From: Longispora fulva
GTDB taxonomy: Bacteria > Actinomycetota > Actinomycetes > Mycobacteriales > Micromonosporaceae
DNA length: 64,000 bases
Direction of reading: 5' to 3'
Assembly (NCBI RefSeq): GCF_015751905.1
Contig: NZ_JADOUF010000001.1
Coordinates: 3,906,001-3,970,000 of the forward strand
Shown here: positions 41,445 through 44,395 of the stretch, piece by piece
How positions within the stretch are numbered: position 1 is the first letter of the stretch
Layout of the letters: every line of letters starts with the position of its first letter
Notes under the pieces: model-generated
The model's input: the letters and a program-made list of their open reading frames with translations, nothing else
Database searches by the model: none
What the model was told of the DNA's origin: nothing
Position numbers and translations under genes: made by a program

Positions 41445-42065
41445 GTGACGACGCACGACCTGCGCGGGCCCGGAGAGCCCACGACCCTGCGCTATCCGGC
41501 CGGCGCCGTGCTCGTCGTCGCAGGCATCCCCGGCGCGGGCAAGACCACCCTGCTCCGCCGGCTGTTCGACCTCACCGGCCGCGAGACGGGCCCGGTGCCA
41601 CTCCCGGGCGGCGGCTGGCTGCTGGACTCCGAGCAGGCCCGCAACCGGTGGCGTCGCAGGCTCGGCGGCCGGGTGCCGTACGCGGCCTACCGACCGGTGG
41701 TGCACCTCACCCACTACCTCGCGGTGTACCGGGCGGTCCGCGCCGGCCGGGGCGTCGTCCTGCATGACTGCGGCACCCGGCGCGTCCTGCTGCGGTTCCT
41801 CACCGGGAGGCCGACCCACCTGATCGCCCTCGACGTGCCGGCGGCCGTGGCGCGCGCCGGGCAGCACGCGCGGGGCCGGCGGGTCCGCGGCCGGGCGTTC
41901 CGCCGGCACGACCGGGCCTGGCGGTTCCCCGCCGACGGCGGCCCGCCCCCGGTCGCCCGGGGCTACCGCAGCCTGGTGCTGCTCGACCGGGAGGCCACCG
42001 ACCGGATCGCGGCCATCGTCCTGGGCGGTGCGATCAGGTCTGCGACAGGGACTGTCGTGCTGTGA
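41445..42065 (+). CDS. P-loop NTPase (AAA/kinase-like)
   Basis: A 206-aa protein. Walker A AGIPGAGKTTLL is at residues ~26-37; a Walker-B-like VVLHDCG follows near 104-110; the C-terminal half is Arg-rich (HARGRRVRGRAFRRHDRAW) with the ALDVPAAVARAG loop of small-molecule kinases. It resembles the zeta-toxin/nucleoside-kinase-like group of AAA proteins. Substrate unknown. It lies 50 bp before the membrane protein of the DUF692 operon and may be co-transcribed. Confidence 0.75.
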   Translation: MTTHDLRGPGEPTTLRYPAGAVLVVAGIPGAGKTTLLRRLFDLTGRETGPVPLPGGGWLLDSEQARNRWRRRLGGRVPYAAYRPVVHLTHYLAVYRAVRAGRGVVLHDCGTRRVLLRFLTGRPTHLIALDVPAAVARAGQHARGRRVRGRAFRRHDRAWRFPADGGPPPVARGYRSLVLLDREATDRIAAIVLGGAIRSATGTVVL

Positions 42066-42115: not shown

Positions 42116-43072
42116 ATGGCGGACGACACACTCGTGGTCGCGTTCCTGCTCTCCGGAGCGGCCCTGCTCGCCGTCTCCGTCGTCGTGCGCGGGCGGCTGT
42201 TCGCCGGCGGCGGCGGACACCACCTGCCGATCGACCCGATCGATGTCGCGTACCTCAAGGGCGGCCCCGGGCTCGCCGAGTACGCGGCGCTCGCGGCACT
42301 GCGCGCGGCCGGCGCCGTGGCCCCCGACGGCACGCCCGGGACTCTGCCCGTCGGGATGCCCAGGCTCGCGCGGGTCGCCCACGAGGGCATCGTCGCCGGG
42401 TCGGGCCCGTGGCAGTCATTGCGCACCCCGGCCGGCCGGGAGGCCCAGGACCAGATCCGGACGAAGCTGGAGCGTCAGGGGCTGCTGACCAGCCGGTCGC
42501 AGCGCGCGGGGGCCCGGGTCGGCCCGATCGTGCTGCTCGGCGCGGCGGCCGGTGGCGTCGCGTTGGCGGCGCGGTCCGTCGAGCCCCGGCACACCGTGCT
42601 GTTCGTGCTGGGCACCGCCCTCCTCGCGATCGTCGGGGTACTGACGCTGCGGGCCCCGTACCGCACCGTGGCCGGGAAGGTGGTCCTGCGCGACCAGACC
42701 CGGCGCAACGGTCACCTGCACCCGCGCAACCGGCCGGCGTGGGAGACGTACGGGCCGGCGGGAGCCGCGCTCAGCGTCGGGCTGTTCGGGACCGCCGCGT
42801 GGTGGGCCTCCGACCCGGACTACGCCCGCGCCCTGGGCATGAGCCGGGTGTACGTGGGCGGCAGTGGCCCGCACCCGTACTCGTCGTGCAGTGCCAGCAA
42901 CGCGCCGTCGTCGAGCTGTTCGTCGGCCGACACGGGTTCGGGATCGTCCTGCAACGCGTCCAGCTGCAACTCCTCGAGCTGCGGCTCGTCGTCGGGGTGC
43001 GGTTCGAGTTCGTCCAGTTGCAGTTCGTCGAGCTGCGGTTCCGGGTCGAGCTGCGGCGGGGGCGGGAATTGA
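42116..43072 (+). CDS. TIGR04222-type membrane protein with Ser/Cys/Gly-rich tail
   Basis: A 318-aa protein. After a first membrane helix (LVVAFLLSGAALLAVSVVV) comes a soluble region (PIDPIDVAYLKGGPGLAEYA, TPAGREAQDQIRTKL), then three more helices (GPIVLLGAAAGGVALAA, VLFVLGTALLAIVGVL, AGAALSVGLFGTAAWWA). The last ~66 residues are low complexity: nine Cys, most preceded by Ser (SSC), mixed with Ser, Gly and Asn. This matches the family whose conserved domain lies next to a low-complexity tail. The tail is a likely substrate for the DUF692 enzyme encoded next. ATG 42116 has GGGGGGA upstream. Confidence 0.8.
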   Translation: MADDTLVVAFLLSGAALLAVSVVVRGRLFAGGGGHHLPIDPIDVAYLKGGPGLAEYAALAALRAAGAVAPDGTPGTLPVGMPRLARVAHEGIVAGSGPWQSLRTPAGREAQDQIRTKLERQGLLTSRSQRAGARVGPIVLLGAAAGGVALAARSVEPRHTVLFVLGTALLAIVGVLTLRAPYRTVAGKVVLRDQTRRNGHLHPRNRPAWETYGPAGAALSVGLFGTAAWWASDPDYARALGMSRVYVGGSGPHPYSSCSASNAPSSSCSSADTGSGSSCNASSCNSSSCGSSSGCGSSSSSCSSSSCGSGSSCGGGGN

Positions 43073-43110
43073 CCGACGGATCCGCGGCCGGTGGCGGGCC
43101 TGGCGCGCGG

Positions 43111-43911
43111 GTGTCCGGGGTGGGGATCGGGTGGCGGCCCGAGATCGCCGGGTTCGTCGCCGACCTCGCCGGGCTGCGGTTCTGCGAGGTGATCGCCGAG
43201 ACCCTGGGCGCGGGGATGCCCGCCCCGCTCGCCGAGCTGCGTGACCGGGGCGTCGCCGTGGTCCCGCACGGGGTGGCACTGTCCCTCGGCGGCGCGGAGC
43301 CGGTCGACCCCGCGCGGGTGGAACGGCTCGCCCGGTGCGCCCGGCTGCTCGACGCCCCGCTGGTCAGCGAGCACGTCGCGTTCGTCCGGGCCGGTGGGGT
43401 GGAGGCCGGGCACCTGCTGCCGGTGCCGCGCAGCCGGGAGGCGCTCGCCGCGACCGTGGCCAACGTCCGGCGGACCCAGGCGGAGCTGGCGGTGCCGCTC
43501 GCGCTGGAGCCGATCGCCGCGCTGTTCGACTGGCCGGACGACGAGCTGACCGAGGCGCAGTTCCTCACCGAACTGCTCGACGCGACCGGCGCGCTGCTGC
43601 TCCTGGACGTCGCCAACGTGTACGCCAACGCCCGCAACCGGGGCACCGACCCGCTCGCCCTGCTCGACGCGCTCCCCCTCGAACGGGTCGCGTACGCGCA
43701 CGTGGCCGGGGGCGCCGAGCACGCCGGCCTCTACCACGACACCCACGCGCACCCCGTGCCGCCGGAGGTGTTCGCGCTGGTCGGCGAGCTGTGCGCCCGG
43801 CACCGGCCGCCGGGGCTGCTCCTCGAACGCGACGACCGGTACCCGTCAGCCGTGGCGTTGCGGGCCGAACTCGACGCGCTGGCGGCGGCGTCCGGCCATC
43901 CCCGTGTCTGA
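43111..43911 (+). CDS. DUF692 / MNIO multinuclear iron-dependent oxidase
   Basis: A 266-aa TIM-barrel protein of the DUF692 (MbnB/TglH-like) family. Candidate metal ligands in order: His in VVPHGVALSLGG, His in SEHVAFV, Glu in LALEPIAALF, Asp/Asn in LLLDVANVYANARN, His in YAHVAGG, Asp/His in YHDTHAHPVP and Glu/Asp in LLERDDRYP. Characterised members bind two or three irons and oxidatively rework cysteines of peptides into oxazolone/thioamide or related groups. GTG 43111 starts the conserved GVGIGWRPEIAG. It lies 38 bp after the Cys-tail protein and overlaps the next gene by 8 nt. Confidence 0.88.
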   Translation: MSGVGIGWRPEIAGFVADLAGLRFCEVIAETLGAGMPAPLAELRDRGVAVVPHGVALSLGGAEPVDPARVERLARCARLLDAPLVSEHVAFVRAGGVEAGHLLPVPRSREALAATVANVRRTQAELAVPLALEPIAALFDWPDDELTEAQFLTELLDATGALLLLDVANVYANARNRGTDPLALLDALPLERVAYAHVAGGAEHAGLYHDTHAHPVPPEVFALVGELCARHRPPGLLLERDDRYPSAVALRAELDALAAASGHPRV

Positions 43912-44395
43912 CCGGCCGTCGCCGGAGACGTCCGCGCCGCCCGCAACCGGGCCGGCCGAACCGGCGCAGCCACCACCCGAGCGGGCCGGTCTCGCCGAGC
44001 GGCAGGCCCGGCTCGTCGCAGCGCTGGTCGCCGGGGACCCGCCGCCGCCCGGCTTCGACCCGGCGCTGCTCGCCGCCACCACGGCCGGGCTGCTCGCCAA
44101 GCGGGCCGGAGACGCGGCCCGCGCCTGGCCGGAGCTCGCCGCGAGCCTCGGGACCGGGGCCGGCTGGGCCCGGTGGTTCGCCGCCTGGGCCGCCGGCCGC
44201 CCGCCCGGCGGGTCCTACGCCGACGGCCTGGCCGCCGCGCGGGACCGGGCCGCGTCGGGTGACCTGACCGGGGCCGCGGCCGTCGAGCTGGCCGTGCGGG
44301 AGGTCGCCCGGCTGCCGTGGCGGTCGGTGCGCTGGAACCGGGCGGCCCGGGTGCTGCGGGTCGCGGGGCGGACCTTCGTCCTGCGGGGACAGTGA
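43904..44395 (+). CDS. Partner protein of the DUF692 enzyme
   Basis: A 163-aa protein starting at GTG 43904, overlapping the DUF692 gene by 8 nt, so the two are translationally coupled. After a Pro-rich N terminus, the region RAGLAERQARLVAALVAGDP...WPELAASLG is helical, a central WARWFAAWAAGRPPGGSYADGL follows, and a basic C-terminal end (WNRAARVLRVAGRTFVLRG) closes it. From memory it resembles small proteins encoded beside actinobacterial DUF692 genes. A substrate-binding role like that of other MNIO partners is inferred. Confidence 0.65.
   Translation: MSDRPSPETSAPPATGPAEPAQPPPERAGLAERQARLVAALVAGDPPPPGFDPALLAATTAGLLAKRAGDAARAWPELAASLGTGAGWARWFAAWAAGRPPGGSYADGLAAARDRAASGDLTGAAAVELAVREVARLPWRSVRWNRAARVLRVAGRTFVLRGQ

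Follow-up and report, generated by a model that had tools for sequence, protein, structure and literature searches.

The locus and its genes

The window, a stretch of 64,000 nucleotides within the 8.68-Mb one-contig genome of Longispora fulva, contains three plus-strand genes, each overlapping the next, that probably form one protein-modification unit. Their positions, and that of the cysteine-rich tail on which much of the following turns, are:

42116..43072, + strand: gene 1, ATG start, 318 residues, TIGR04222 membrane protein with a C-terminal Cys/Ser/Gly tail, putative substrate carrier
42878..43069, + strand: tail of the gene 1 product, 64 residues (255-318) with nine Cys, putative modification sites
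43069..43911, + strand: gene 2, MNIO (DUF692/MbnB_TglH_ChrH) oxidase, PF05114 match of 261.5 bits
43904..44395, + strand: gene 3, GTG start, 163 residues, PME-type 2-like partner

In profile searches the gene 1 product scored 83.8 bits against TIGR04222 (near_uncomplex; cut-off 43) over residues 11-229, the PF05114 match of gene 2 lay far above its cut-off of 25, and the product of gene 3 had no Pfam or NCBIfam match. Gene 2 is read from a TTG at 43069 that overlaps the stop of gene 1, with a GTG at 43111 as an alternative start, and the start of gene 3 in turn overlaps the stop of gene 2. An earlier note on this DNA had described the three genes in this order, and its coordinates, family names and count of nine Cys all agree with the profile matches and open reading frames; its remark that the operon seems conserved among actinobacteria is likewise borne out, as an intact MNIO, a Cys-tailed membrane protein and a partner recur together across the Actinomycetota. 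Across 70 loci no neighbour was shared beyond carrier, MNIO and partner, and no copper gene, protease, transporter or exporter, or other enzyme was conserved beside them. A gene for a P-loop nucleotide-binding protein (41445-42065) lies on the same strand and ends 51 bases upstream of gene 1; it is absent from the conserved neighbours of the unit in those 70 loci.

The genome encodes a single MNIO. It also holds a second TIGR04222 protein (50.6 bits; L216 1-7801, G000:C1:2028900-2036700), which has no MNIO nearby and carries a short tail with a single Cys, outside the pattern described below.

The locus is a new member of a class that has been described in silico. Antoine et al. (2025; PMC12452194) presented TIGR04222 proteins, which have Cys tails rich in Ser and Gly, are often linked to an MNIO and come with PME-type 2 partners, as putative substrates of these enzymes. 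In that survey more than a quarter of the TIGR04222 proteins had no Cys, one third of the TIGR04222 genomes had no MNIO, and a PME-type 2 partner was assigned to at least 10% of the TIGR04222 clusters, many of which appeared to have no partner; the tail was predicted from AlphaFold models to lie outside the membrane (PMC12452194). The architecture that the earlier note put forward had thus already been predicted in print, both the association and the hypothesis having appeared in 2025 (PMC12452194). A search of the literature found no experiment on the TIGR04222 subset of MNIOs. What is new here, and in our view worth testing, is that the tail is portable, that the partner is universal and often fused, that a mini-protein may serve as substrate in trans, and that the tail likely lies on the cytosolic side.

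The cysteine tail

The nine Cys of the tail are found at residues 258, 268, 279, 284, 289, 295, 302, 307 and 313, most of them after a pair of Ser, and at the 0.48% Cys of the core domain in the TIGR04222 family the chance of nine Cys in 66 residues is about 4e-11. The pattern is regular across the family. In 150 distinct MNIO-linked tails, which hold 728 Cys, Gly or Ser stands before 94% and after 97% of the Cys, the spacing peaks at 6, and 107 of the tails have their last Cys two residues from the end; gaps of two or fewer between Cys were seen once, against 129 expected on shuffling. In an alignment of 49 homologues about 30% identical to the gene 1 protein, only two columns are invariant, one of them C313, and C307 comes close to invariance. 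The AF2 model of the gene 1 protein (mean pLDDT 81) leaves the tail disordered.

For the survey, both families were sought in 297 genomes of the class and the MNIO in 200 genomes of the order, and 140 loci were fetched. The Cys pattern is present in 74 of the 87 nearest MNIO-linked TIGR04222 proteins and in one of 19 from MNIO-less genomes, the single case looking like a read-through artefact; the corresponding Fisher test gives p = 3e-11, uncorrected for descent. With correction on the tree, 3.5 pairs agree and 0.1 disagree (median p 0.25), a result that is not significant because the MNIO-less TIGR04222 proteins fall into nearly a single clade. The association is thus consistent, but the tree test alone does not prove it independent of descent. 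In a second set of 80 loci, picked by MNIO similarity and partly overlapping the first in species, a TIGR04222 gene was found in all 73 cases where the upstream DNA was covered, and 69 of these 73 proteins have at least three tail Cys. The earlier note had held that tails devoid of Cys in most homologues keeping the oxidase gene would speak against its reading; in both sets most such homologues retain tail Cys.

The oxidase and its partner

An HMMER alignment of gene 2 to TglH, whose structure displays nine iron ligands (PMC10880893), places the corresponding residues at H67, H102, E147, D180, N183, H211, D224, H226 and E253. All nine are invariant in the 97 enzymes of the subfamily that were surveyed, E253 being a gap in one row, and this includes Streptomyces enzymes whose linked TIGR04222 protein has no Cys; the loss of metal ligands, which the earlier note had also named as evidence against its proposal, was not seen. 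At residue 148 (window 43510-43512), beside the bridging Glu147, the window and 29 relatives have Pro, 63 enzymes have Asn and four have His. Against neighbouring families the gene 2 product scores 179.2 bits with the BufB equivalog, below the cut-off of 310, and 28 bits with MbnB, for which the cut-off is 325.

With an HMM grown from gene 3, a partner homologue was found at 97 of 97 MNIO loci of the subfamily, the window included, and at 80 of 80 loci of the second set; in 32 of the 97 it is fused to the MNIO in one uninterrupted frame. The same HMM found no partner at five loci with bufferin-like or divergent MNIOs, and among TIGR04222 loci without an MNIO it matched only a weak remnant at one (L207). 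At that locus (L207 3320-4336, genome G038) the TIGR04222 tail frame runs into the partner fragment, as if a deletion had taken out the MNIO and left this scar. The universal presence of the partner in this MNIO subfamily, and its frequent fusion, add to the published picture.

The partner lies directly after the MNIO and has no DUF2063 (PME-type 1) match, as expected of PME-type 2. Its AF2 model (pLDDT 90) has N-terminal helices and a three-stranded end. The best structural match of this model is MbnC of the methanobactin MNIO complex, at a weak Z of 4.5 over 98 residues; weak as the resemblance of the model is, MbnC is the protein that one would predict for such a partner. Neither NGO1945 nor TglI was among the structural matches, and Foldseek returned nothing significant with the same model.

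The same tail on unrelated carriers

The tail also occurs apart from the TIGR04222 protein, on unrelated carriers encoded beside the same enzyme. At three loci of another family (L132, L136 and L146, family f19) no TIGR04222 gene was found near the MNIO, and between MNIO and partner lies instead the gene of a protein of 83-104 residues with one N-terminal helix and the same kind of tail, GGCGG; this gene begins near the MNIO stop or overlaps it. A further locus (L385, family f28) has the order MNIO, partner, mini-protein, and another (L113) has a mini-protein with one Cys between the TIGR04222 gene and the MNIO. A carrier of quite another kind occurs at L141 (4951-7862, minus strand), where two tandem proteins of about 440 residues adjoin a fused MNIO and partner, and the one closer to the fusion has a regular Cys tail. 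We call these HEAT-like from a reading of the sequence rather than from a profile match; no export signal or membrane helix was seen in the tailed protein on inspection.

None of the carriers tested reached the cut-off of any Pfam or NCBIfam family. As they are not recognisably homologous, their common tail and common linkage constitute independent evidence that the tail is recognised by the enzyme unit. Most likely, then, the substrate element is the tail and not the TIGR04222 domain, and further proteins that bear this tail would be modified as well, even where their genes lie outside the locus. A broader formulation is quite possible, and we advance it tentatively: the tail would be a C-terminal tag for modification, portable and cytosolic, through which one MNIO-partner pair serves several unrelated hosts in cis or in trans. 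If it is true, the tag would represent a general, tail-directed protein modification at the inner face of the membrane and not a peptide natural-product pathway. Neither the transfer of the tail to unrelated carriers nor trans mini-proteins were found in the text of Antoine et al. (2025), and the very small ‘adjamnio-V’ proteins left unexplained there could overlap with the linked mini-proteins.

A mini-protein encoded in trans in Streptomyces

At 15 Streptomyces loci, which at first sight seemed to be exceptions, an intact MNIO-partner pair accompanies a TIGR04222 protein without Cys, or none nearby, and in all 15 of these genomes a tail-pattern search combined with a family search found a mini-protein encoded elsewhere. 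In most cases the gene has a strong ribosome-binding site, and the protein combines a basic stretch with an SWWAGG-like motif and a Cys tail. These mini-proteins make up an undescribed family (L352 1279-1569 and its relatives, L339-L363) of 73-117 residues with one N-terminal helix, for which no Pfam or NCBIfam family reaches its cut-off. The first tail pattern tried was too loose, as it matched 24 of 24 genomes and its reversed control matched more often, and a tighter one was used.

Among 199 Streptomyces genomes sampled, an MNIO was present in 187 and the mini-protein was detected in 145. The two are associated, the mini-protein occurring in 142 of the 187 MNIO-positive and three of the 12 MNIO-negative genomes (p = 5e-4). 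The three with a mini-protein and no detected MNIO (G476, G564 and G628) are assemblies in 120 to 1420 contigs, and none of the seven better MNIO-negative assemblies has the mini-protein (p = 7e-5, for a subset chosen after seeing the data).

Two further features of these genomes were recorded. A DNA element, CTCTGgAGTTgCTCAACTCTGCTTTGG followed after about 15 bases by GGGCATC, is strongly conserved upstream of the mini-protein genes (for example at L358, about 1100-1270) and may be the gene's own promoter or operator; as a marker of a shared regulon it was rejected, because no searched genome had more than one copy and none of the copies lay near the MNIO. In addition, a peptidyl-tRNA-hydrolase-like protein is encoded upstream of the MNIO in some Streptomyces (L125 2903-3625, L097 3063-3884, L120 4984-5691), with a Cys near its end in the first and Ala instead in the second. 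This protein probably corresponds to the ‘adjamnio-II’ described by Antoine et al. (2025).

The side of the membrane

The side on which the tail lies depends on the hydrophobic segments of the gene 1 product, placed by its AF2 model, by charge and by insertion energy on a re-implemented scale:

42119..42202, + strand: helix 2-29, transmembrane segment 1, predicted N-out (AF2; insertion energy -1.2; K/R after, few before)
42494..42574, + strand: helix 127-153, transmembrane segment 2 (AF2, insertion energy, charge)
42584..42643, + strand: helix 157-176, transmembrane segment 3, then a strongly basic stretch (AF2, insertion energy, charge)
42740..42787, + strand: helix 209-224 (16 residues), marginal fourth hydrophobic segment, which decides the side of the tail (AF2, insertion energy)

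The first helix of gene 1 is long, without a basic n-region and with K/R after it, so that a retained membrane helix is likelier than a Sec signal peptide. In TIGR04222 proteins generally, three of the helices are clear, and basic stretches follow helix 1 and helix 3. When the TIGR04222 model was compared with known folds, it matched just generic helical bundles and no clear relative.

According to the published reading, an N-out protein with an even number of helices would place the Cys tail outside the membrane, where its modified Cys would act like bufferins. This reading of the topology from AlphaFold models (Antoine et al. 2025; PMC12452194) receives some support from the window and most Micromonosporaceae, in which segment 4 is uncharged and moderately hydrophobic (median KD 1.45) with few K/R after it. 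We nevertheless regard it as rather unlikely. The insertion energy of segment 4 is +1.3 in the window, with a family median of +1.0 and 8% of values below 0, as against -1.1 to -2.0 for the other three TIGR04222 segments; the segment is a helix of only 16 residues in the AF2 model and is charged in Streptomyces relatives, and in eight of nine Streptomyces Cys-tailed proteins no membrane-like segment was found in its place. An outward tail would also oblige a cytosolic enzyme to finish before the tail crossed the membrane. The mini-proteins point the same way: K/R number 0-1 in their first six residues (none at all in 22 of 23 mini-proteins) and 4-12 beyond the helix, and by the positive-inside rule they are therefore predicted to be N-out, with the tail in the cytosol. 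The HEAT-like carrier, with no export signal or membrane helix visible, is likewise difficult to reconcile with a tail outside.

A tail in the cytosol is the simplest answer common to these carriers, the HEAT-like protein and a cytosolic enzyme included, and we consider it fairly probable. The ‘envelope-fixed’ tail of the earlier note is doubtful in the sense of an outward orientation, since charge and hydrophobicity favour the cytosolic side for the mini-protein and probably for TIGR04222 as well.

A proposed role for the modified tail

That the tail is modified at all appears likely. In the scheme that we propose, and towards which as a whole we lean slightly, the MNIO and its partner would assemble into a cytosolic holoenzyme, in the manner of MbnB-MbnC and TglH-TglI, and bind the unstructured Ser/Gly tail of a membrane-anchored carrier. 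The isolated Cys, each within a (G/S)C(G/S) unit, would then be oxidised, most likely to 5-thiooxazoles by analogy with other copper-binding MNIO products; characterised MNIO-PME1 pairs install this group, and their products generally bind copper (PMC13097082). The carrier would be neither secreted nor cut, but would stay in the membrane and present 3-10 modified sulfur ligands as an array, most probably to the cytosol. Tethered in this way, the array could buffer copper or another soft metal, a role that is our best guess for the function and a tentative one.

It is also conceivable that the tail Cys are never modified and bind metal as free thiols, or have a redox role, with the MNIO acting on some other substrate. 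Cys-rich sequences are able to bind metals without any enzyme, and several Streptomyces keep an intact MNIO beside a Cys-less TIGR04222 protein. Those same genomes, however, carry the tail on the trans mini-protein, a mini-protein lies between enzyme and partner at the three f19 loci, and 18 of the 19 TIGR04222 proteins from MNIO-less genomes are without the patterned Cys, so that unmodified tails seem unlikely.

A second alternative retains the modification and has the tail cut off afterwards as a free peptide, to serve as a metallophore or a signal. Most MNIO products known from the literature are indeed peptides, and the disordered tail could be released by a general protease. Yet no protease or exporter is conserved beside the unit in the 70 loci, inspection revealed no leader or cleavage motif, and every carrier except the HEAT-like one keeps a membrane helix. 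With no other enzyme conserved there either, we find it more plausible that a resident protein is modified permanently, and we judge the release of a peptide improbable. Finally, the notion of a functionless low-complexity tail that gained Cys by drift in a Gly/Ser repeat, to which the variation of tail length and Gly/Ser order between species might lend itself, is already contradicted by the non-random Cys spacing, by the invariance of C313 and by the recurrence of the same pattern on unrelated carriers.

MNIOs are best known as makers of metal-binding peptides. Should the tails of resident membrane proteins be among their substrates as well, most Streptomyces (an MNIO is present in 187 of 199 sampled genomes) and many other actinobacteria would carry this protein modification. 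The Streptomyces mini-protein is a short, well-defined candidate substrate in a standard laboratory genus, and so the role of TIGR04222-type MNIOs becomes directly testable.

Comparison with known systems

The closest relatives of the locus are the clusters of Antoine et al. (PMC12452194), which share its three gene families, its Cys/Ser/Gly tail and the proposal that this tail is the substrate; one partner modelled there comes from Micromonospora matsumotoense, a species represented in the present set by locus L229. The two accounts differ in the partner, assigned to at least 10% of clusters there and found with every MNIO of the subfamily here, and in the tail, placed outside there and favoured in the cytosol here. 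The bufferins and captophorins (BufABC, FonABC, HvfABC) similarly pair an MNIO with a partner, the two acting on several Cys of one protein, and their product binds copper, but bufferin precursors have Sec signal peptides and DUF2063 (PME-type 1) partners, whereas the partner in the window has no DUF2063 match. Methanobactin biosynthesis by MbnABC also relies on an MNIO with a small substrate-recruiting partner, although its precursor is a free peptide with a leader and its product carries oxazolone-thioamide groups. Finally, the nine iron ligands of TglH are conserved in gene 2, and the partner, as in TglHI, combines N-terminal helices with a C-terminal beta part; TglH differs in acting on a small peptide, TglA-Cys, from whose Cys it excises a carbon.
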